Part shown: piece after piece, positions 3,901 through 64,000 of the stretch
Position numbering within the stretch: position 1 is the stretch's first letter
How the letters are laid out: every line of letters starts with the position of its first letter
Assembly (NCBI GenBank): GCA_008330645.1
Contig: VLTN01000022.1
Coordinates: 372,001-436,000 of the forward strand
DNA length: 64,000 nucleotides
Origin: Cafeteria roenbergensis
Taxonomy: Eukaryota; Sar; Bigyra; Bicosoecida; Cafeteriaceae
Direction of reading: 5' to 3'
Translations under genes and position numbers: made by a program
The notes under the pieces: generated by a model
What the model was told of the DNA's origin: nothing
The model's input: only the letters and a program-made list of their open reading frames with translations
Databases searched by the model: none

Positions 3901-6900
3901 CGGCGGCTCTGCCAGGGACTGGAGCACGGAGGCGGTTGCGGTCGAGGAGCGTGACGCCGGCAGCGCGGCTGGCGACCGCTTGGACGAGAAGGAGGTGGAG
4001 GCCGAGGAGGGGGGCGCGGGAGGCGCAGTGCCGCGGCGGGCCGCGCGGTCGCGGGGCGGGGACGCGCGGGCCGCTGCGGCAGGGGCTGCGGCAGGGGCTG
4101 CGGCGGGGGCTGCGGCGGGGGCTGCGGCGGGGGCTGCGGCAGGGGCTGCGGCGGGGGCTGCGGCGGGTAGGTGTGCCGGGGGGAGGTGTGCCGGGGGGAG
4201 GTGTGCGGCCGGGAGCCTCGGCTCGGGCGCTGGGGAGGCTGCAGGGGAGGCGGCTGGGGAGTGGTGGATCGACGACACGGTGGAGGTGCCGCTGGAGGAC
4301 CTGCCGCCGAGGAACATGGGAGTGTGCGGGGGCGGGGGGCCGGGGGGCGGCGGCGGGTTGGAGGGGCGGCTGAACCGCTGGGCTGAGGCCGTGTGGGGCG
4401 TGGGGGGTGCCTGGGAGGCGAGCAAAGGGGAGGCCACACCGGCGTCCGGGTTGTGGATCGGACTAGGAGCGGCAGCCAGTGCGGGCGATGGGCGGGTCAG
4501 GCGCGGCGGCCGGCCCGCGCTGGGTGACCCGTCCCCGCTGGCAGGCGCCGCGGGCTCTACCGGCTGGTTCGCAGAGGCCTCGGTGGGTCCGGCCGAGAGA
4601 TCAGCAGGACCGGACGCGGAGGGCCCGCCCGCAGCACCGGCGTCGGCGGGCGGCGCGCTGGGGACGGGTTCGCCGCCCGCCTGGGAATCGGACGCCGAAT
4701 CGTCCCGCACCTGCGCCACGGGGCGGCTGTCGCTCCCCCCATCAGGCAAGTTGGGCCCGGCAAGGTCCTCGACGTGGGCTTCGCGCGGTGCCTCCGCCGC
4801 TGGCTCCACGCCCGACTCGGGCGTCGCGTCGGCGGGGTGGGTCTCGGCCTTGGGCGAACTGGGCAGCTGCTCCACATCCCGCCCCGCCCCAGCGCCATCA
4901 GCGGCAGTCCCCGCCGCACGCGTCCCCGCGCCAGGCGAACCTGGTACCGCCTCGCCATGAGCTGCCGCGTCGTTGGAGCTGGGCTGCGCACGAGTCTCTG
5001 GTTCGCTCCCGGCCTTGGAAGCCGGAAGCTGCGTCTCAGGCGATGCTGCAGCAGCGGCAGACTGCGGAGAGGTCCTTGCGATGACCACCGCCTCGGCCTT
5101 CGACCGAGCCTCCTCCTCCTCCGCCTTCAACCGAGCCTCCTCCTCCTCCGCCTTCAAGCGAGCCTCCTCCTCCTCGGCCTTCAAGCGCACCTCCTCCTCC
5201 GCCTTCAAGCGCGCCTCCTCCTCCGCCTTCAAGCGCGCCTCCTCCTGCTCCGCCTTCAAGCGAGCCTCCTCCTCCTCCTCCGCCTTCAAGCGAGCCTCCT
5301 CCTGCTCCGCCTTCAAGCGAGCCTCCTCCTGCTCCGCCTTCAAGCGAGCCTCCTCTTCGGCCTTCAAGCGAGCCTCCTCCTGCTCCGCCTTCAAGCGAGC
5401 CTCCTCCTCGGCCTTCAAGCGCGCCTCCTCCTGCTCCGCCTTCAAGCGAGCCTCCTCCTGCTCCGCCTTCAAGCGCGCCTCCTCCTGCTCCGCCTTCAAG
5501 CGAGCCTCCTCCTGCTCCGCCTTCAAGCGAGCCTCCTCTTCGGCCTTCAAGCGAGCCTCCTCCTCCTCCGCCTTCAAGCGAGCCTCCTCCTGCTCCGCCT
5601 TCAACCGAGCCTCCTCTTCGGCCTTCAAGCGCGCCTCCTCCTTGACCTGTGCTGCATTCTGCACGGCCTTGCCCCCCAGCGACCTCGTCGGCGCAGTAGG
5701 CTTGGCCGGACCGTTTGGCTTGAGACCTGGCTTGGATCCGGGCTTGGGGCTGGGCTTGGAGCCACCCGGTGGCGAGGGTTTCGCCGGACCGCTGGGCTTG
5801 GGACCTGGCTTGGCTCCGGGCGGCGTGGGCTTGGCCGGCCCGCCAGGCTTGGCACCGGGGGGAGCGGGCTTGGCTGCGACCGGCGCAGTAGGCTTGGCCG
5901 GACCGCTGGGCTTGGAACTTCCCGGCGGAGACGGCTTGGCGCTCCCCGGTGGCGTGGGCTTGGAGGCAGTGGGCGGCGTCGGCTTGGGACCGGGCTTGGG
6001 GCTGGGCTTGGAGCCACCCGGCGGCGAGGGTTTCGCCGGACCGCTGGGCTTGGGACCTGGCTTGGCTCCGGGCGGCGTGGGCTTGGCCGGCCCGCCTGGC
6101 TTGGCACCCGGGGGCAGCGGGCTTGGCTGCGACCGGCGCAGTAGGCTTGGCCGGACCGCTGGGCTTGGAACTTCCCGGCGGAGACGGCTTGGCGCTCCCC
6201 GGTGGCGTGGGCTTGGAGGCAGTGGGCGGCGTCGGCTTGGGACCGGGCTTGGGGCTGGGCTTGGAGCCACCCGGCGGCGAGGGTTTCGCCGGACCGCTGG
6301 GCTTGGGACCTGGCTTGGCTCCGGGCGGCGTGGGCTTGGCCGGCCCGCCTGGCTTGGCACCGGGGGCAGCGGGCTTGGCTGCGACCGGCGCAGTAGGCTT
6401 GGCCGGACCGCTGGGCTTGGAACTTCCCGGCGGAGACGGCTTGGCGCTCCCCGGTGGCGTGGGCTTGGAGGCAGTGGGCGGCGTCGGCTTGGGACCGGGC
6501 TTGGGGCTGGGCTTGGAGCCACCCGGCGGCGAGGGTTTCGCCGGACCGCTGGGCTTGGGACCTGGCTTGGCTCCGGGCGGCGTGGGCTTGGCCGGCCCGC
6601 CTGGCTTGGCACCGGGGGCAGCGGGCTTGGCTGCGACCGGCGCAGTAGGCTTGGCCAGACCGCTGGGCTTGGAACTTCCCGGCGGAGACGGCTTGGCGCT
6701 CCCCGGTGGCGTGGGCTTGGAGGCAGTGGGCGGCATCGGCTTGGGACCGGGCTTGGGGCTGGGCTTGGAGCCACCCGGCGGCGAGGGTTTCGCCGGACCG
6801 CTGGGCTTGGGACCTGGCTTGGCTCCGGGCGGCGTGGGCTTGGCTGGCCCGCCTGGCTTGGCACCGGGCGGCGTGGGCTTCCTTGCGCCGCCTGTCGTGG

Positions 6901-10765: not shown

Positions 10766-13100
10766 ATGGGTGCGGCCCCGATGAGTGCTGGTGGTGCGGG
10801 AGAAGTGCTATGGGAAGCCGCGAACGCGGGGAACACTGCCGAGGTGACAAGGCTTGTGGAATCGGGAGCGCCTGTGAACTGGGCAGGCAAGGGGGTGAGG
10901 ATCGTCGTTGCAGGGCTGGCAGTGGGCATGTCGCAGCTCTAGAGACCCAGCAGAGGAGGCTGAGCGAATTTTTCGGTTGTGCACTCTGGCTGCTGTGCGT
11001 TGTTACTCCGCAGCTCGGCCAAACGCCGCTCATGAGGGCAGCGGAAGAAGGGCATGTGGCGTCGATGCGAGTGCTGCTGGATCGCGGCGCCGACCCGAAT
11101 GCCAAGGACAAAGTCAGCCCATCGGATGCATAACGGTGCTGCTGGCCCATCGATGACGTCTGAGGCCGCGACGCCGCCAGCAGCGCTGCAAATCGTGCGT
11201 GGTTCGGGGCGCAGGCCATGCAGCCGCGAGGCGCGCATGGGGCCGCGACACGCTCGTGGCAAACGGCGGGGGAGTGGGGTGTCGTTGACAGAGCCTCTGT
11301 GGTAGGTGATGGGTGTGTTGGGTCGCTGGCTGGTATGCGCTGGGGGTCGCAGGATGGCCGGACAGCGTTGTTCATGGCTGCCGCGAATGACCGGGCAGAC
11401 GCTTCGGCAATGTTGCTCGACCACGGCGCGGACTCGGAGGCCAAGGACAATGTCAGCCCATCGGATGCACACTGGTGCTGCTGGCCCGTTGATGACGTCT
11501 GAGGTTGCGACGCCGCCAGCAGCGCTGCAGATCGTGCGCGGCGCGGGGCGCAGGCCATGCAGCCGCGAGGCGCGCATGGGGCCGCGGCACGCTCGTGACG
11601 AACGGCGGGGGAGTGGGGTGTCGTTGACAGAGCCTCTGTGGTGGGCGACGGGTGTGCTGGGTCGCCGGTTGTATGCGCTGGGGGCCGCAGGCGGGCTGGA
11701 CAGCGTTGATCACGGCTGCACACTGGAAACACGTGGACGTCATGTCGGTATTGCTGGACCACGGCGCGGATTCGGAGGCCAAGGACAATGTCAGCCCAGC
11801 AGATGCACAACGGTGCTGCTGGCCCGTTGAGGACGTCTGAGGCCGCGACGCCGCCAGCAGCGCTGCAGATCATGCGTGGTTCGGGGCGCAGGCCATGCAG
11901 CCGCGAGGCGCGCATGAGGCCACGGCACGCTCGTGGCAAACGGCGGGGGAGTGAGGTGTCGTTGACAGAGCCTCTGTGGTGGGTGATGGGTGTGCTGGGT
12001 CGCTGGCTGGTATGCGTTGCGCGCCGCAGGATGGCCGGACAGCGCTGGTCTTGGCTGCATACTGCGGCAGCAAGGACGCCATGTTGGTGTTGCTGGCCCA
12101 CGGCGCCGACCCGAATCCCAAGGACAATGTCAGCCCATCAGATGCACACCGGTGCTGCTGGCCCGTTGACGACGTCTGAGGCCGCGACGCCGCCAGCAGC
12201 GCTGCAGATCGTGCGTGGTTCGGGGCGCAGGCCATGCAGCCGCGAGGCGCGCATGGGGCCGCGGCACGCTCGTGGCAAACGGCGGGGGAGTGGGGTGTCG
12301 TTGACGAAGCCTCCGTGGTGGGCGACGGGTGTGTTGGGTCGCTGGCAGGTGTGCGCTGTGGGCCGCAGGATGGCCGGACAGCATTGTTCGCGGCCGCATA
12401 CTGCCACAACGTGGACACCATGTCGGTGTTGCTGGACCACGGCGCCGACCCGAATGCCAAGGACAAAGTCAGCCCATCGGATGCATAACGGTGCTGCTGG
12501 CCCATCGATGACGTCTGAGGCCGCGACGCCGCCAGCAGCGCTGCAGATCGTGCGTGGTTGGGGGCGCAGGCCATGCAGCCGCGAGGCGCGCATGGGGCCG
12601 CGGCACGCTCGTGGCAAACGGCGGGGGAGTGGGGTGTCGTTGACGAAGCCTCTGTGGTAGGTGATGGGTGTGCTGGTCCGCTGGCTGGTGTGCGTTGCGC
12701 GCCACAGGATGGCCGGACAGCGTTGTTCGTGGCCGCATACTGCGGCAACAAGGACGCCATGTTGGTGTTGCTGGCCCACGGCGCCGACCCGAATCCCAAG
12801 GACAATGTCAGCCCATCAGATGCACAACAGTGCTGCTGGCCCGTTGAGGACGTCTGGGGTCGCGACGCTGCCAGCAGCGCTGCAGATCGTGCGCGGCGCG
12901 GGGCGCAGGGCATGCAGCTGGGTGCACTCGCACAATTCACTGTAGCGTTGTTGTGTGGCTTTGCACTTGTGATGGCGCCGCAGGACGGCTGTGGCGTGGC
13001 CAGCGAGTGCAGCGACGTCGGCTGCAGAGCGTTGCTACTCAACGCGGAGCGCATGCAGCGCTGGCACCGTCGCCGGCGTTTGATACTGTGGCTTGTGTGA
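10766..13100 (+). CDS. ankyrin-repeat protein built from one-repeat-per-exon tandem array
   Basis: Exon 1 (10766-10894) encodes MGAAPMSAGG and a first ankyrin half-repeat. It is followed by six 99-bp exons, each exactly one 33-residue ankyrin repeat: 11014-11112, 11353-11451, 11691-11789, 12030-12128, 12369-12467 and 12708-12806. A last exon at 12984-13100 encodes a Cys/Arg-rich tail with a stop. All introns are phase 0. Introns between the six repeat exons are 239-240 bp, start GTCAGCCCA, end CAG and are very alike. Total 279 residues. Repeats follow the pattern DGRTALF-AAYC-DAM-VLL-HGADPN-KDN. Ankyrin repeats bind partner proteins; no effector domain is attached, so the partner is unknown. 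The last exon is the least certain part. Confidence 0.8.
11014..12983 (+). repeat. 339-bp tandem exon+intron units of the ankyrin array
   Basis: Five full 338-339 bp units (99-bp exon plus 239-240 bp intron) and a sixth exon with a shortened 177-bp intron. By eye the introns are about 91-93% identical between neighbours, while exons are 71% (second versus third) to 89% (fifth versus sixth) identical. The unit is 113 codons long and its introns are phase 0, so gain or loss of units keeps the reading frame. Confidence 0.85.
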
Positions 13101-13390
13101 GGCCGCATCTGTGGGGTGTGTCGCTAGGCTGTCGTTTGTGGGGCACGCTCACGTGCCCGTCGGCACGCAACAAGTCGCGCAGACGGGCAGGCAGCTGTCC
13201 GCCCGCCCTCTCGCCTGTCAGATGGTGGCGCCGCATCGGCCTGAAGGGCCCTGTGGCTGTGCCCCGGTCCTCGGATGGCGGGTGGGCCGGCCAGCAGCCG
13301 GCCAGACAGGGTGTGCGTGGCAGAGCATTCAGCGCAAGCAAATGGCACGCTGTTCCCCCGCCAAAGCGCGAGCGGTGGCGTGGTCGGGCA

Positions 13391-14305
13391 ATGGACGACC
13401 GAGTGGCCGAGTGCGTTCGAGCGCTGCACGGAGGGGATGCTGACGCGGTGGTTGAGCTGCTCTCGAAGCGGAGCAGCGACGCTGACGGTGCTGGCATGAC
13501 CGTGCTGCATCACTTGGCCCGGGTGTGGGACGCTATCGACCAGGATGTTGCCGAGCGGGCCCTTGGCGTGCTGTTGGAAGCGGGAGCAGACGTGGCGCTG
13601 CGGGACGGCTTGGGTCGCTGTCCCAGCGTGGTATCAGCCGCCCACCAGACGGGATTTGCTTCTGCGCTGTTGGCCGCGCACAAGGACGGAGGCTTGAGTT
13701 TGCCTTCCGACTGGCTCGGTCGTGGCCCGGGGGGCGCCTTGGCCGATGCGGATGGCAGGGGCCCCACCAGCCGGCCTGCAGAGGCCGAGCCTGTGCCAAG
13801 CCACAGCGAGGCGCAGTCCGCCGGCGCCGGCACAGAGCCTGCGGGGCGGCAGCTTGAGGCTGGTGGCGGCGGGCCCGATGAGCGCGCAGACGGCGGGGGG
13901 TCCGGCCGGGCGAGCAGTCAGGGCGAGCAGCGCGCAGAGGCGGTGTTGCGGCGGGGGACGCTCGCCGCCGAGCTGCTGCGTGAGCGGGTGCGGGCGTCTG
14001 GCGTGGGCCCCGCGGAGGCGTTTGCCGCGCTGGCGGGGTCTGAGGAGGAGGGTGCCGTTGTGACCGCGGAGAGCGCCGCCAGCGCAGCGACGGCACTCCG
14101 GCTCGACATCGAGGAGGAGGAGGCCGCGGTGCTTGTGGCGCTGATGGCGGGGGGGGCGGACAGACAGGCAACGGCTGATCGGCTGCAGGCGTCTGCGCGC
14201 CAGTGCGACGAGCAGGGCCGGGGCGTAGCCGCGTGGCTGTCCAGCGTCGGCCGGGCGGGCGGCGGGGCCGCTTCGCTGGACAGCTTCGCTCAGTTCTGCG
14301 CGTAG
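13391..14305 (+). CDS. second ankyrin-like protein with acidic Ala-rich C-terminus
   Basis: A single exon of 304 residues starts at ATG 13391 (MDDRVAECVRALHGG). The first ~110 residues read as degenerate ankyrin repeats: DADAVVELLSKR, MTVLHHLARV and VLLEAGADVALRDGLGR. A low-complexity Gly/Ala/Glu linker follows, then an Ala/Glu-rich helical end (ALRLDIEEEEAAVLVALMAGG) that may be a degenerate EF-hand-like fold. It lies 290 bp downstream of the ankyrin array gene on the same strand, suggesting local duplication and divergence. Its last 11 codons and stop are repeated in the minisatellite that follows. The family and function are unknown. Confidence 0.65.
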   Translation: MDDRVAECVRALHGGDADAVVELLSKRSSDADGAGMTVLHHLARVWDAIDQDVAERALGVLLEAGADVALRDGLGRCPSVVSAAHQTGFASALLAAHKDGGLSLPSDWLGRGPGGALADADGRGPTSRPAEAEPVPSHSEAQSAGAGTEPAGRQLEAGGGGPDERADGGGSGRASSQGEQRAEAVLRRGTLAAELLRERVRASGVGPAEAFAALAGSEEEGAVVTAESAASAATALRLDIEEEEAAVLVALMAGGADRQATADRLQASARQCDEQGRGVAAWLSSVGRAGGGAASLDSFAQFCA

Positions 14306-14630
14306 CAACCACGACCGCGCGCCTGGCCGCTTCGCTGGACAGCTTCGCTCAGTTCTGCGCGTAGCAACCACGACCGCGCGCCTGGCCGCTTCGCTGGACA
14401 GCTTCGCTCAGTTCTGCGCGTAGCAACCACGACCGCGCGCCTGGCCGCTTCGCTGGACAGCTTCGCTCAGTTCTGCGCGTAGCAACCACGACCGCGCGCC
14501 TGGCCGCTTCGCTGGACAGCTTCGCTCAGTTCTGCGCGTAGCAACCACGACCGCGCGCCTGGCCGCTTCGCTGGACAGCTTCGCTCAGTTCTGCGCGTAG
14601 CAACCACGACCGCGCGCCTGGCGGCTTCGC
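14266..14630. repeat. 59-bp minisatellite containing the stop codon of the upstream gene
   Basis: Six near-identical 59-bp units, with GCTTCGCTGGACAGC near 14270, 14329, 14388, 14447, 14506 and 14565, and a broken seventh at about 14624. The first unit overlaps the last 11 codons and TAG of the ankyrin-like gene; the others fall in its 3' flank. The period is not a multiple of three. Confidence 0.9.
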
Positions 14631-49971: not shown

Positions 49972-52042
49972 TCATTGGAAGCCGGCCGGTATCCTGTGCT
50001 CGCGCGCCGAAACCGTTGCGGCAGTCGCCACGGAAGACGATCCCGACTCAACAAACGTCCCCGCCGCACCCGCCGCAGCGTTTCCGGTGGCAGACGATGA
50101 CGACGACGACGACGACGACGACGCGAGGGAGGCGAGCTCAGAGCTGCCCACGGCTGAGCCAGCGCTGAGCGCGGCAGCAGCCAGTGCAGCAGCCCGTCCC
50201 GCCGCGGCCACGGCTGCCGGGAGGCCGGCGGCGAGGCCTGCCCTCTCCACCACGGAGGAGTCCCTCGCAACGAAGGAGAAGCCCCCCCAGTCGCCCGACG
50301 CGCTGGCTAGCTGGCCGGGGGCTGCGGCCGAGGTCCCCGGCGCGACGCCCACTGAGGCAATGTCGAGGCGGGTGAACTCGGGCGAGAAGAACGAGGTGTC
50401 GTCCGAGCCGCGCACGCCTGGGGTCCAAGGGGGCGGGATCTCCCGGCGGGCGAGGGCGGCCCAGTCGACGCCCGCGAAGAACGGGTGGCTCTTGATGTCC
50501 GAGGCGTCGGAGGTGAGGCAGCCGAGGCGGGAGCGGGGGTCCTTGTTCAGCAGCCGCTTGAGGATGTCGACCGCGGCGGGGGTGAGGTTGGACGTGTCGC
50601 TGAGGTCCAGCTTGGCCTCGCGGATCTTGGCGAAGAGCTCCTTCCGGTCGGAGCTGTAGAAGGGGGGCCAGCCGGTGAGCATCTCGAAGAGCAGCGCACC
50701 GAGGCTCCACCAGTCGACGGCGCGGCCGTGGCCAGAGCGGGCGAGAATCTCCGGGGCGAGGTACTCCGGGGTGCCGCAGAAGGAGTGCGCGCCCGTGTCG
50801 GCCTGGGTGACGCCCTCCTTGCTCAGGCCAAAGTCCGTGAGCTTGATGTTCCCCTTGGCGTCCAGCAGCACGTTCTCGGGCTTGAGGTCGCGGTAGACGA
50901 CGCCCTTGGAGTGGAGGTGCTCGAGCGCGAGGAGGATCTGCGCGGCGTAGAACTTGGCCCTGCCCTCGTGGAAGCGGCCTTCCTTGCCCAGGTGGAAGAA
51001 GAGCTCGCCCCCGGGGCAGTAGTCCATGACAAAGTAGAGCTTGTCCGCCGTCTGGAAGGCGTACTTGAGCCCGACGATGAAGGGGTGGGAGATCTTGCCC
51101 ATCACCGCGCGCTCCGTCACGGTGTGCTCCACCTGCTTGCGCGCCGCCACGGTGCGCTTGTGCAGCACCTTCATGGCGTAGACGCGACCGCTGTCCAGCT
51201 TGCGCGTCAGGAATACCTTGCCGAAGGAGCCCTTGCCGATCACCTTGACAAGCGAGAAATCGGCCAGGCTCACCTTGAGGCGGGCGGAGAGCGCGGCGTC
51301 AAGGCCGCGGTGCGGCCCGTCAGGGACACGCGGGGGCGCACCGGCTGCTGCCGCGCCCGCGCCTCCCGGCGCAGCGGCGTCCATGTCCGCGTCGTCGTCG
51401 TCGTCGGCGCCAGCAGCAGCAGCGCCTGCGCTGGCTGCGGCGGCCGCCGCTGCCCCTGCCTCTTCCGACGTGGGCCCGGCCCGGGCCGCAAGCTGGACGT
51501 CTTGCGGAGGCTTGTTGGCATTTTGCCGGAGGAAGTTGTGAAACACGGCGCTGCAGCAAACGCGCTCGTCGCGGGCCAGCTGCGCGAAGGAACACCAAGT
51601 GTCGAGCGAGAGGCGCTGGCATGCTCGCAAGCTGAGGCGGCAGCACATGAAACAGGCCGCGCGCCCCCGGGGAACACACCGCGAGCAAGACGTTCACCAA
51701 GGGCCGGGGCTCGTGTGGGATGGGGCTTGGAGGCTCATGGGAAAAGGGGCGGGGCAGTTGCGGGTGATTCCGCCTGCGGGCTTCGGGCCAGCCGCGGAGC
51801 GGGCTCACGTTGCGGATCCAGTGAAGGAGCGCGCGGCGCCGAATCTCCATGACATCGCGAGTGAGAGTGCCCCCCGGTGCCGGGTGCTTTGCGGGGCAGG
51901 CGGCCAAGTCCGCAATCGTGCGGCGAAGCAAGTCTTCGAGAGCTCGGAACTCGGAATAACGCCTGTACACTGTCCACGCGTACGGCCCGAGGCAGATGTA
52001 GATGGCAAACACCTGCGATCCGCCCAGGGGCACGCAGCACAT
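49972..52042 (-). CDS. PX-domain AGC-family protein kinase (SGK3-like)
   Basis: The PX exon (52012-51809, or 52042-51809 if MCCVPLGGSQ is the start) has VFAIYICLGPYAWTVYRRYS, the phosphoinositide-contacting RRYSEF core. After a 193-bp intron, the second exon (51615-49972) finishes the PX helices and carries an AGC kinase: VIGKGSFGKVFL, the ATP lysine in YAMKVLHK, VYRDLKPENVLL, KLTDFGLSKEG and the activation segment SFCGTPEYLAPE, where Ser replaces the usual Thr. WGGFSF near the C-terminus fits a hydrophobic motif. PX plus AGC kinase is the SGK3/CISK layout, implying endosomal PI3P-directed signalling. The 5' end is uncertain; an upstream exon may exist. Confidence 0.8.
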
Positions 52043-58505: not shown

Positions 58506-61500
58506 TCACGCCGTCTCAAACTCTGCCGCGTAGAGCGCGTCCAGCACGGTGGCCGAGGACCACGCCTGGACGACGCAGCTGGCCTCACACACGGCGCCCT
58601 CGGCGTTGGTGAGCTCGGGCAGGCCGCCGTGGGGGCTGCTCTCGATCCAGCGCCGGTGCTCGCGAAGCTGCGCCAGCACCCACCGGCGCGCCGCCGGCCT
58701 GGACCAGCGCGCGGACAGCAGGGACGGGCTGGGAGGCACGGTGCCGTCATCGACGCCGTCTTCGCTGCCTTCGCCGCCAAGGACGCCTGCGCCCCAGTCG
58801 TCGTCCCCTGGGCCACCCTCCTGCTCGCCCTCGGGAGTGGGGGAGATGCCTAGCGCGCCATCCAGGTCGGCCTCGGCCACGGCCCTGGCGGCCAGCGCAG
58901 CGGCTGACAACGGCTTTGCGGGCCTGCCGCCCTCGCTCGGAGCCCGGTCCGCAGCCGACTCGACCGCGCCGCGGCCCAGCGGGTCCGGCACGAGCGCGGC
59001 CACGGCAGCCCGCGGCGGGAAGTGCAGTCTGGCGCGCAGGTAGTAGCCGAAGGGCCACAGCCACTCGGGGCCCTGGTGGTAGTTCCAGCCCGCGGCCGTG
59101 GCTCTGTCGTCGCTCTCCTGGTTGGTGTACACGCCGCGGTAGGCCCAGTCTCCCGGGTCGAGGGTCTTCACTCCCATCTGGCCCGGGCTGTGGCCGAGCA
59201 GCTGCCGCTCCACTGCGGCCAGCGCCACTGCCGCGCGCCCCGGGCTGAAGAGCTCTGGCGCCACGGCCATGGCCACCAGAAAGTTCGGCCGCAGCTGGTA
59301 GTCCGCCCAGGCCGCCGACGCCCCCACGGTGTCCTTGTAGATCCCGCGGCCGTTCACGATGCTTGCGTCCACCTCGCAGTCGGCAGCGGGCGGCGCCGAA
59401 CGGCCGCGCAGCGCCTCCGGCTCCGCCTCCAGCGGCACCCAGTAGCGCCGCTCGAAGGCCCGCGCGACGTCGTCTCTCCACGCTGCCCACGTCAGCTGGT
59501 GGCCGCCGGGCAGCGACGCTGCGGCCTGCGGCAGCAGCCCCGCAGGCGCCGCCTCGGCGGCCCAGGCCAGCACCGAAAAGAGCAGCCCAGTGAGCTCCAC
59601 CGGCGCCCCGTCGCGCGGCGTGGCGGGCAGGCCGTCGGTGCCGTGCCGCGGGCTCTCTCCCATCTTGTCCATCCACGTGCCGCAGTTGAGGCCGTTGCCG
59701 CCCAGCAGGATGCCGGAGCGCTCGTCGCGCCGCACTTCCACGGTGAAACCGCCGTCGCGCATGTGCGCGTCAATGCCGCGGCCCGCGCGCCACTCCCGGA
59801 AGTGGATTCCCCGTGCGTGCGCGGCGAGCACCCCGCACACGATGCTGCCCAGCGAGCGCGGCCGCGCCAGCTCCGCCGGGCCCGTGAAGGCGCCGGTGGC
59901 GGGCGGGTCGTAGTCGCGCTCGTCGTCCGAGGGGAATCGCGGCGCCACAAGCTCGTCCAGGATGTGGGGGTGTTTCGGGTCGCGGGCGGCCCCGCCGCCG
60001 GCGTGGGCGGGAGCGATGCGCACAAAGTCGACCACGGCCTGCAGCCACCACCACGTGGCGTCCCGTGCGTTGTAGCGGGGGTTGCGGCCGCCGTCGAGGA
60101 GGTTTGGCACGAGCCCGTGCCGGACCACGGCCGCCAGCGACAGCAGCGTGCGCCTGGCCTCAGCAAACCGCCCGGTGAGCAGGAGCAGCCCGCGGAGGGA
60201 GATGCACGTGTCGCGGCCCCAGTTGCGCATGAAGCCTGTGCAGAAGTGGTCCACCCCGGCGCAGAGCGAGCCGCTGGCCGAGAAGGGGCCTGCGGCGTCG
60301 CCGCCAGCGCCGCTGCCGCCACCTGCGCCGCTGCCGCCGCCGGCGCAGTTTGCCACGCAGCTGTGGGGCGCATTGGCCTCGTCCGAGTCGGCCGGGGAGC
60401 GGCGCTGGAGCAGGCGGGGCGCAAGCAGCGGCGCGGACGGCGTCTGCGAGAAGAGCATGACCGAGGTCAGCGCGAGGGACACCACGAAGGGGGGCGAGGA
60501 GGACGGAGGCACGAACACCACCAGGCGGTCCCTGCCGCGCCCGGCGGGCGAGGCGTCCCCGGCGTCGGAAGCCAGGTCCACCAGAGCCGCCGGGTGGCTT
60601 CCCTTGCGGTGCAGGGCCGCCATGGTGGACAGCGCCCACTGGTCAGACGCGGACCCGTCGCCGGCAGGCCCGCTTGCGACGGCGGCTCCGCCCTGCGGGC
60701 CTGACGCCTGGGCGGCTGGCCGCCGACCCCCCGCCGCCGCCGCCGCCGCTGTGGCGGCCCCCGAGCGGGCGAGCGGGTCGCCGCCCAGCAGTGCGCTGCC
60801 GCTGGCCCGCATGTGGGCCACCGCGCAGGCCACGGCAGCGTTGTACGCTGCGGACACGACGCGGTCGAACCCCTGGGGCCGAAGCCCGGGCGGCATCCGC
60901 CGCAGCGCCGCGAAGTGGCTCTGCAGCCACCGGCGGACCCTGTCGAGCCCCGGCCTGCGGCGCAGCCGAGCGCACACGAAGTCCATTGCCCAGGAGCCCT
61001 GCCGCAGGTTCTCGCACAGCGGGTGGCCGAGGTCGTTGGAGCCGCGGGCGGCGCGGAGCACCGCCTCGAAGCCGGCGAGCCCCGCCCAGGGCAGCCTGCC
61101 CCAGCCCGGCACGTCGTACACGCCGCTCTCCCCCGCGGAGTCGTCCCGCTCCTCGGCGTCCACGCGGAACAGGAGCACGGCCAGGTCCGCGAGGGACGGG
61201 ACGCCCTCCGAGGCCCCCACGCCGGCGGCGGCCGCGCCCGCGGCACCCTCCTTTCCCGCCCGCAGGTCCGAGTAGAACCGTTCGATGGCGCCGTCCAGGC
61301 CCAGCGCAGCCTCCAGCTCTGCCAGCGGGGGCCCAAAGCCCGCCTTGAGCGCCGCTGCGCCGGCGGAGGGGGCGGGGAGGGCGGCCGCCTCGTCGCTGCC
61401 GCACCGCTCCGTGACGCACGCCGCGCCCTGCGACGGTGCCGCTTGGAGGGGGTGCGAGAACAGCCGCAGGGGCACCTGCGCGTTGCGCGGCGCGCTGACG

Positions 61501-62961
61501 CGAAGCACCAGGACTGAACCGGGCCGGAACGCCGGCGCCAGGTCGACCAGGGACACCGTCGGGCCGCCCTTGCCCGACGTCTCGACGCGCCAGGAGCCCA
61601 TGCCGAGCGGCAGGGAGCCGCAGCCGGCCGCGCCGTCGACGGCCGGGTCGCGGCCAAGCCCCGCGCTCTCGAGCTCGCACGGCACCCCTGTCACGAAGGC
61701 CGCGGCCAGCTGCTCGGCCGTGGCCCCGGCCCCCGCCCTGCGAGCCGCGGCGATGGCGGCCGCGGCCGCAGCGCGGCCCGAGGTGACCTCCGGCGCCGCC
61801 GCCAGCGCGCGCTCCACCGCCGCGGCGTCGGCCGACAGCCGGGCCGCCATGTCCACGCTCTCCACCACCCCCTCGATGCGCACGGGCGGCAGGCGGGCGC
61901 CGGCGGCCACGGCGGAGGAGGCCACGGCAGCCGAGAAGCTGCACCTGCACACGAACACCACGGTCTCCGACCGCGACGGGTGGCCTCGGGTGATCACCAG
62001 CAGGTCCCCCCCCTCCCGCACCGGCTCTCTGTGCACGTGGACCTCCACCATGCCCGTGGCGGCCAGCTCCAGCGACAGCGCGCTCAGCCGGCGCCTGGCC
62101 GGAAGGATCCCCTCAGGCACGGGGGGCGCTCCTGCCGGCGGTTGGTAGAGCCGGTAGTCGGTCACGACGCTGGGGTTGCGGGCGGCGAGGCGGTCAAAGC
62201 CGCGGACGGAGCCCGAGGCGCAGGCCGCTGCGGCCACCAGCGCCGCGGTCGGGAGGGTGTCGTGGGCGGAGCGGCGCGCGAGCAGCGAGGGGTTGTCGTG
62301 GGTCAGGTCGAAGAGGATCTGCGGGATGGCTGAGGGCAGGCACTCCTGCGCCAGCGACCGCGCGGGGCACCCGGGCGCCCCGATCCACGTGTCGGCGTGC
62401 CTGAGCGACCCGGACGGCGTGCCGCCCGCCGCGGAGGGGTGCAGGCTCGCCGCGAGCGCGGCCTCGTCGCCCGCGTGCACGGTTTCGCGGACGAGCGAGT
62501 TGATGCCCAGCATGCCAGCGTAGAGCACGTCGTCCTGCACGCTGTTGGTGAACAGCTCCGCGTTGACGTACAGCAGCGGCCGCTCCTCGCGGGCCGCGTC
62601 CAGCATCCTGCGGGCCACCCAGGGCGGCGTCCCGTGGGCGTTGTCGAGCCTGACCGCCTGGAACAGCCGGGCGGCGCGGCGGCTGTACTCCTCCATGCGC
62701 GCCCAGCTGGCTGGCGCGTCGGACGGCCGCAGGCCGTAGCGCATCTTCACGCAGTCGCCCCAGATGATCACCTCGCGCCGCACGTAGGGCGTGGAGGCCA
62801 GCACCAGCGGCACCGGGACCTCCGGCGGCAGCAGGCCCCACGCGCCCGGGGCACCCGGCTTGCGAGCCGGCGGCGCCTGCCAGGCAGACCGAGCTTCGGC
62901 CGCCGCCGGAGCCGCCGCCGGAGCCGCCGCCCCGCCGCTGGCCCCAACCCCCGCCGCTGCC

Positions 62962-63006
<45 letters not shown>

Positions 63007-64000
63007 GCAGCAGCCTCCGCCGATGCGCACTGGCCGCCGCCCGCCGGCGCGTCATCCACGCATGGCTGGTCCGCCAGGCGGAACGCCAGGTCGGCGTAGG
63101 CGTGGGCCGCGTCGGTGGGCAGGGTGAAGTCGATCTTGGGGTCGCCGCCCCACACGAACCCGTTGCAGGCGACGGCGTGCGGCCCCGCGCGCTCGAAGTA
63201 GGCCCACACGAAGGGGTGCTCTGCCGAGAGGCTGCACCGGCCGCGCCTCTCCGACAGCCACAGCTGCTTGGCTGCGGACTCCACGCCGCGGAGGGCCGCC
63301 GCGACGTCGCCGTCGTAGCGGTCGTACAGCGGGGCGTTCACGGCGTCCACGGCCGCCCCCACCGCCTGCAGCGCCCGGGCGCACGCCCGCGCCTCTGCCA
63401 TTCCCCCGTCGGGACTGCCCGCCGCCACGCGGCCCACGAGCTGCCAGAGGATGGGGCCCCCGGTGTCGTCAGCCGCGCCGTCCAGCGCTGCCGCCAGGGC
63501 GGCCGGCGCGATGCGCACCGGGAAGCGAGCACCCGTGCCCGCGTTCCACGCCCCTGCGCTCGCCAGGCGGGAGTCCGAGCCCGGACCGTCCGCGCACTTC
63601 CACCCCTCCCGGGGCGGCTCGGCCGCCATAAGGTCCCGCGCCACGGCAGAGGCGCTGGCTGCGCTCAGCGGGCGCGCCACCGGGCCAGCGCGGGCTGCCG
63701 CTGCCGCGATGCGGCCAGCCGCGCGCACGCACTCGGCGCTGGTCCACGCGTCGCCCGCGCCCAGAGTGGCCACGCGGATGGGCTTCTCGGCAGAGCCGGC
63801 AGAGGCCGCTGCCAGGGCGGCCAGAGTCGGGGCCGCATCGGCCTCGTCCGGCGCCCGCTCGCCGGTGGCCTCCTCGATGCTTGTGGCAGGGGCCGGAGCC
63901 GCGGCCGCGGCCGAGACGCCCGCCTTGCGACGCCACTCCGCGCCGGCCGCCCAGGCCGCCAGCGCCGCCAGCTGCGGCGCCGGAGCCGCCACATAGTACT
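58506..64000 (-). CDS. AGL: glycogen debranching enzyme (partial, N-terminus beyond right edge)
   Basis: One uninterrupted minus-strand frame of more than 1830 codons runs past the window edge. It matches the bifunctional eukaryotic enzyme. The 4-alpha-glucanotransferase part shows VIIWGDCVKMRYGLRPSDAP, the nucleophile Asp in VRLDNAHGTP, the acid/base Glu in LYVNAELFTNS and FDLTHDNPSLLARRSAHD. The amylo-1,6-glucosidase part shows WGRDTCISLRGLLLLTGRF, GLNCGTWMDKMGES, LPATPRDGAPVEL, ADYQLRPNFLVAMAVAPELF and YHQGPEWLWPFGYYLR. It removes glycogen branches in the cytosol. Several Ala/Gly-rich insertions, including a poly-Ala run from a GCT repeat, make it longer than the ~1530-residue animal enzyme. 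No introns are seen. Confidence 0.95.
62959..63007. repeat. CAG/GCT trinucleotide repeat coding poly-alanine
   Basis: About 15 uninterrupted CAG/GCA units on the plus strand, read as GCT/GCC alanine codons on the minus strand, within a stretch of more than 20 Ala residues in the debranching enzyme. Confidence 0.9.

Follow-up and report, generated by a model that had tools for sequence, protein, structure and literature searches.

Organization of the ankyrin gene

The window analyzed here is a stretch of 64,000 nucleotides from Cafeteria roenbergensis (contig VLTN01000022.1) with a GC content of 71.7%. An ankyrin gene lies on its forward strand at positions 10766-13100. Exon 0 (10766..10894) is open from an ATG to a GTGAGG donor and encodes an N-terminal capping ankyrin half-repeat (N-cap) of 43 amino acids; it is 68% identical to the N-cap query of the family described below and is among the 108 matches of that query in the genome. 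Intron 0 (10895..11013, GTGAGG...CAG) leads into six ankyrin exons at 11014..11112, 11353..11451, 11691..11789, 12030..12128, 12369..12467, and 12708..12806, each consisting of 99 nt between an AG and a GTCAGC. The first of them belongs to a distinct, TPL-type first-repeat class that recurs as the first exon across arrays and that was overlooked in the initial annotation. The five array introns (11113-11352, 11452-11690, 11790-12029, 12129-12368, and 12468-12707) measure 240, 239, 240, 240, and 240 bp, and the exon starts from 11014 to 12708 are spaced by 339, 338, 339, 339, and 339 bp. Thus, the array of six 99-bp, phase 0, one-repeat exons is as first described, except that one of its supposedly uniform 339-bp units is 338 bp long. 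Intron 6 (12807..12983) resembles the array introns by eye in its 5' part and then differs from them. The last exon (12984..13100) encodes a C-terminal cap (C-cap) of 38 amino acids followed by the stop codon, and homologous C-caps occur downstream of other arrays. Both outer limits originally assigned to the gene, the N-cap ATG at 10766 and the C-cap end at 13100, are backed by paralogues.

In-frame stops are present in all five array introns. The spliced product, as modeled with completion by family homology, is a protein of 279 amino acids made up of the N-cap, six repeats, and the C-cap. Curated 33-residue repeat models place it among the ankyrin repeat proteins: PF12796 scores 205.6 bits (cut-off 27.3), and PF00023 is found in six stretches. 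In this Pfam scan, ankyrin models alone matched the 279-residue protein, with no match to a ROC-COR GTPase, ZU5, or death domain. The term “receptor” in the initial annotation is therefore unsupported, the protein being ankyrin-only by Pfam.

The array introns of the window gene differ at 14-27 positions per pair over all pairs and at 21, 23, 18, and 19 positions between neighbors, in agreement with the 19-22 of 240 first counted by eye. The original exon counts were likewise reproduced: exons 2 and 3 differ at 28 of 99 sites, and exons 5 and 6 show 11 differences (10 replacements, 1 silent). Exons 1 and 6 are separated by 38 differences in 99 sites and introns 1 and 5 by only 14 in 240. When ankyrin exons 1 and 6 are omitted, the ratio of silent exon divergence to intron divergence (dS/K) in the window array is 4.2.

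A family of one-repeat exon arrays

A DNA search with the window locus gave 94 matches in the 36.3-Mb, 167-contig genome, and 28 stretches were taken around many of these; being selected for DNA similarity to the window, they are not a random sample. In these stretches, 245 open segments of 99 nt, with AG on one side and GT or GC on the other, score as ankyrin repeats in a search confined to 99-nt length and phase 0, at a similarity threshold of 60 that somewhat favors the conserved framework. The initial annotation had raised the matter of similar arrays elsewhere in the genome, and a large family was indeed found, with 36 arrays of at least three one-repeat exons. Unit spacing is mostly 329-354 bp and falls to 273-312 bp in the arrays C10, C12, C52, and C17:228509. 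A 40-residue N-cap query has 108 matches genome-wide, on 55 contigs; 32 of these are at least 68% identical to it, and the remainder form a second, more distant group, to which the same four arrays, the ones examined from that group, belong.

In 33 of the 36 arrays, the first scored exon has an N-cap upstream, and one of the exceptions has just 21 bp of upstream sequence covered. On the 3' side, a C-cap homologue follows 23 arrays, that of the window included, and a coiled-coil-like C-terminal exon takes its place in 7; the 6 that match neither motif include two with <200 bp covered downstream. The coiled-coil-like exons vary in internal repeat number in the four that were inspected.

Between the one-repeat exons lie 198 introns. 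The length of 133 is not a multiple of three, and in-frame stops interrupt 48 of the remaining 65, so that 181 of the 198 cannot be read through. The in-frame stops, together with the conserved splice sites, suggest that the exons are spliced together.

The genomic setting of the family was also noted. Of the 108 N-cap matches, 31 have a contig start no more than 20 kb away, compared with an expected value of at most 9% (contig starts only); a subtelomeric setting is not claimed, because the arrays can themselves end contigs. Other ankyrin genes occur on contigs C28, C46, C86, C126, and C162, where matches lie ∼102 bp apart in long open frames. Thus, this genome has ankyrin families with one exon per repeat alongside others that seem to lack introns. 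Searches for a chlorophyll a/b-binding protein, for an exact TTAGGG x4, and for an 18S pattern with one mismatch allowed all gave no match. A human-type glycogen debranching enzyme and an AKT/SGK-like AGC kinase encoded in the window would suit a eukaryote that does not photosynthesize, although this is no more than a hint.

Amino acid change at the surface codons

The six codons used to assess selection were fixed beforehand as the positions randomized in designed ankyrin proteins (DARPins), which we take to correspond to exon positions 33, 1, 3, 11, 12, and 31; the anchor for this mapping, and position 31 itself, are assumed. TPL-class first exons and last exons were left out. At least three usable internal exons remained in 25 of the 36 arrays, and 16 of these had an intron divergence (K) of <0.15 (low-K arrays). 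Rates were obtained from parsimony counts, a counting method and not PAML, with intervals from a bootstrap over arrays. The residue numbers underlying five of the test codons come from PMC3602593.

Amino acid change is in excess at the surface codons of the hairpin tip and first helix. In the 16 low-K arrays, 0.703 amino acid changes per site were counted at the six codons, compared with 0.295 silent changes per site over all codons and 0.146 changes per site in introns. The six-codon rate is thus 4.8 times the intron rate (95% interval 3.7-6.3) and 2.4 times the exon silent rate (1.7-3.6), these intervals being too narrow because the arrays are not independent but derive in part from one another by recent copying, several sharing stretches that are 90-98% identical. 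The ratio to the silent rate was 2.8, 2.5, 2.4, 2.2, and 1.9 at K cut-offs of 0.05, 0.10, 0.15, 0.30, and 1. It exceeded unity, taken against the silent rate of the same array, in all 16 low-K arrays and in 24 of the 25 arrays overall, and the six-codon rate was above the intron rate in 15 of the 16. Only 70 of 20000 random sets of six codons did as well. Within the six codons alone, the ratio of amino acid to silent change (N/S) was just 1.28, a value to which multiply changed codons can contribute inflated silent counts.

The codons were also ranked separately in two halves of the data. The nine most changed were 1, 3, 7, 8, 11, 12, 14, 17, and 32 in the first half and 1, 3, 7, 8, 11, 12, 14, 32, and 33 in the second, and the chosen codons, when scored on the opposite half, gave N/S values of 1.92 and 1.32. 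Four of the six DARPin-randomized positions are among the nine in the first half and five in the second (hypergeometric p = 0.0028). The correspondence with DARPins, which are a man-made library, is incomplete in that position 31 is not variable here, whereas codons 7, 8, 14, and 32 vary additionally. The initial proposal that changes gather at the hairpin tip and first helix over a conserved framework is therefore borne out across arrays, and dN/dS at the variable codons, on which that proposal had been made to depend, exceeded 1 in the counting test.

These data bear on the possibility that the arrays arose by recent tandem duplication and then came under relaxed constraint, such that the protein matters little and its exons drift. 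Some units do carry a stop or a frameshift, and amino acid change at the other 27 codons amounts to 0.87 (0.71-1.09) of the silent rate at K <0.15 and to 0.87-0.99 of it across the cut-offs of 0.15, 0.10, and 0.05. Relaxation cannot, however, push codons set in advance above the silent rate, as is seen in 24 of 25 arrays. Moreover, framework codons 5, 9, 21, 22, 25, and 26 change in amino acid at only 0-0.1 times the silent rate, albeit with a similarity threshold that favors the framework somewhat. Drift of this kind is consequently judged improbable.

Silent divergence and intron likeness

Silent exon sites also diverge more than introns, a feature overlooked in the initial annotation. In the 16 low-K arrays, exon silent divergence was 2.0 times intron divergence (95% interval 1.4-3.0), a ratio that is inflated by the selection of low-K arrays and stands at 1.62 over all 25. 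Selection on amino acids alone therefore fails to explain the contrast between exons and introns. The contrast first reported is real but is not due to exon selection alone, since silent divergence is higher in the exon core than in mid-intron in 11 of the 16 arrays (Wilcoxon p = 0.0063), although not in the other 5.

The distribution of silent divergence was followed at fourfold sites, restricted to codons in which neither the first nor the second base had changed, and is given as means of the 16 arrays. Within arrays, the values along the exon were 0.148 (codons 1-6) and 0.155 (codons 7-12), then 0.081, 0.068, and 0.048. From the splice site outward, the upstream intron gave 0.069, 0.124, 0.116, 0.074, and 0.058 and the downstream intron 0.091, 0.081, 0.062, 0.035, and 0.031, the last value of each series referring to 90-120 bp. 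The profile is not a smooth decay, given that the exon tail (0.048) lies below the start of the downstream intron (0.091). When pairs were pooled instead of arrays, codons 7-12 stood out (0.159), and codons 1-6 (0.082) were close to the near introns (0.075-0.088). The exon core exceeded the exon tail in 9 of the 16 arrays (p = 0.048), and tail and mid-intron showed no difference (p = 0.6). In the window array, the core (0.273), tail (0.345), and mid-intron (0.050) values are such that the tail is as high as the core.

A dedicated diversity mechanism operating on the exon core, be it targeted mutation or somatic rearrangement, would be expected to raise silent and amino acid change together, and both are elevated over the first half of the exon. 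Framework codons 5, 9, and 10 within this core are, however, nearly fixed in amino acid, as selection predicts and blind mutation does not, and such a mechanism is considered very improbable.

Comparison between arrays, with 29 representatives, places the likeness of introns in context. Introns differ by 0.22-0.32 between arrays and, in mid-intron, by 0.008-0.118 within the 16 low-K arrays; they therefore look homogenized within arrays and not generally constrained, in keeping with the homogenization of units initially proposed. These figures also weigh on the idea that the introns are functional, in splicing regulation or as RNA, and hence conserved around otherwise ordinary exons. The unit spacing, mostly 329-354 bp, could be viewed in this light, but low intron divergence is array-specific and no conserved block was seen among the 29 representatives, which makes this idea the least credible of those considered, with only a slight chance of being correct.

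Fourfold divergence along the exon between arrays was 0.234, 0.332, 0.146, 0.107, and 0.171 for the same 29 representatives. As a separate observation, exon codons 13-33 are slower at fourfold sites between arrays (0.11-0.17) than introns are (0.22-0.32). This slow exon tail may reflect codon constraint or a genome-wide homogenization of the block. Given that the tail is low between arrays too, codon constraint may add to the contrast between core and tail. The ratio of within-array to between-array divergence was ∼0.47-0.64 for codons 1-24 and 0.28 for codons 25-33; it went from 0.30 to 0.12-0.14 along the downstream intron and from 0.46 to 0.24 along the upstream intron, with a dip to 0.27 next to the splice site. 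The resulting maximum over the exon, falling off in both directions, fits the expectation from short exchanges combined with selection at the exon core.

First exons provide a further comparison. Against internal units of their own array, median divergence is 0.303 for exons and 0.087 for introns; against first exons elsewhere, the medians are 0.222 and 0.215. These medians agree in part with homogenized introns. Against this, the intron after the first exon has its nearest relative in its own array in only 15 of 34 cases, and the first exon itself in 6 of 34.

Possible exchange of units within and between arrays

Aligned unit orders of related arrays show insertions or losses of whole units beside near-identical shared units. 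Arrays C63:189800 and C78:11921 have 5 and 6 scored units and show 95.6% identity across 4.1 kb, a span that covers the bulk of the array plus sequence beyond it, and C63:179026 and C78:4868 carry the same set of four units; the C63 and C78 arrays could be alleles or duplicates. Scored units number 7 and 4 in C78:83418 and C78:94338 and 5 and 7 in C51:47333 and C139, counts that leave aside units below the score threshold or broken. C10 and C52 have 14 units each in differing sets, and C34 and C101 have 6 each, five of them aligned. Inspection of eight gaps between scored units revealed three that are open, one with a stop, two out of frame, and two without a unit. The gain and loss of units anticipated in the initial annotation is thus reflected in unit numbers that differ between related arrays.

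Traces of shorter exchanges were sought within arrays. Six exons proved to be exact mosaics, each composed of two other exons of the same array, and in three of the six the second parent contributes just the last 15 bases. In C88, one internal exon is very unlike its four near-identical neighbors, while the introns are 2.4% apart.

The latter exon, among near-identical neighbors, is of the kind expected if ectopic exchange carried exon cassettes in from other arrays (exon shuffling in the strict sense), which would make exons older than the introns around them. Such import could also account for silent divergence in exons twice that in introns (95% interval 1.4-3.0). Among 164 internal units, the nearest relative is in the same array for 117 introns and just 94 exons, again as import would predict, but these nearest-neighbor counts are affected by recent gene duplication. 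Furthermore, no donor exon was traced for the window exons, and the six mosaics were sought within arrays only. Cassette import overlaps with the explanation preferred below and, taken by itself, is possible but not the likely account.

Proposed mechanism and function

The evidence comes from one genome, one assembly, and sequence alone. On this basis, the explanation we favor, and hold to be probable, is that the window gene belongs to a large germline family in which introns are homogenized by exchange and selection diversifies the surface encoded by one-repeat exons. Members would be binding proteins, either ankyrin-only or ankyrin with a coiled coil, in which each 33-residue repeat corresponds to a phase 0 exon within a unit of ∼340 bp. 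Unequal exchange and short gene conversion would duplicate, delete, and overwrite units within an array, and the similar introns would serve as anchors for exchange and so stay alike. Selection would favor divergence between units at the concave surface for binding, formed by the hairpin tip and first helix. Because of this, conversion tracts crossing the exon core would not be retained, and silent differences linked to the surface codons would be kept as a consequence. The first and last repeats would act as capping exons under purifying selection. The exchange and surface diversification invoked in the initial annotation is well supported by the data. The exon anatomy, the family size, the excess of amino acid change at surface codons, the raised silent divergence of the exon core relative to mid-intron, the differing unit numbers, and the mosaic exons were observed directly, whereas splicing, the conversion process, and the ligand role are inferences.

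The simplest reading of the proteins is that they are intracellular binding proteins with fast-changing ligands. They likely form a repertoire for recognition inside the cell, in a setting of conflict or self-recognition, and immune, anti-viral, self-recognition, and symbiont-facing roles may each apply. The chance that the proteins serve in an arms race or in recognition is put at about even. A bolder version, in which a probably single-celled eukaryote has ∼100 ankyrin genes and replenishes their binding surfaces by exchanging one-repeat exons with the introns as anchors, perhaps also somatically, as a natural DARPin-like form of recognition, is rather doubtful.

Many exons of the vertebrate ankyrin genes ANK1 and ANK2 hold one repeat each, and the vertebrate ankyrins are conserved adaptor genes without diversifying arrays, with spectrin-binding ZU5 and death domains. 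The ankyrin fold is common to both, the top PDB sequence matches of the window protein being 4rlv and 7tw3; unlike ANK1-3, the window protein has no further domains by Pfam. Introns that are more alike than exons, through homogenization together with diversifying selection, are familiar from MHC class I and snake venom PLA2 genes. There the likeness is between genes or alleles, whereas in the window family it is between repeat units inside one gene.

The closest parallel is with the LRR-ROCO genes of brown algae, candidate immune receptors with a function that is proposed but not proven (Zambounis et al. 2012, as cited in PMC11378527). According to the portion of PMC11378527 drawn on here, these genes have one repeat per exon in a uniform intron phase, exon shuffling, and positive selection on concave, ligand-facing residues, with LRR exons that measure 72 bp, lie in phase 2, and are joined to a ROC-COR GTPase. 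The window family shares the arrangement of one repeat per exon in uniform phase (245 exons in 28 stretches) and, by the counting method, positive selection at ligand-facing positions. It differs in that the window gene has ankyrin exons of 99 bp in phase 0 and a 279-residue product in which Pfam finds no signaling domain. Intron homogenization, measured in the window family, is not reported for LRR-ROCO genes in that portion of PMC11378527. The combination of one-repeat-per-exon shuffling with ligand-facing selection is therefore already known from brown-algal LRR genes, and it is the scaffold, the phase, and the apparent lineage that differ here. No prior description of ankyrin arrays of this type turned up in a literature search of partial coverage.

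In a single genome, the family suggests a way in which repeat proteins can change their binding surface without altering the scaffold, with introns serving as homogenized anchors for recombination and diversity concentrated in islands at the exon cores. It would extend the logic of LRR diversification to ankyrin repeats in an apparently different lineage, largely at the positions that protein engineers randomize, and provides a system in which unit number, exon order, and surface codons are comparable between isolates and between cells.

Neighboring features in the window

The next ORF downstream of the ankyrin gene (ORF 12953-14305, forward strand) appears by eye to be divergent ankyrin-like over 13390-14305 and has no Pfam match. 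Its stop codon lies in a 59-bp tandem array at 14266-14630 (6.2 copies, 99% alike). Two further tandem arrays, at 5091-5642 (27 bp, 21 copies) and 5729-6880 (252 bp, 4.6 copies, 98% alike), are located inside a minus-strand ORF of 2063 amino acids that has no Pfam match. Also on the minus strand are an AKT/SGK-like AGC kinase (49972-51648) and a human-type glycogen debranching enzyme (58506-63992).
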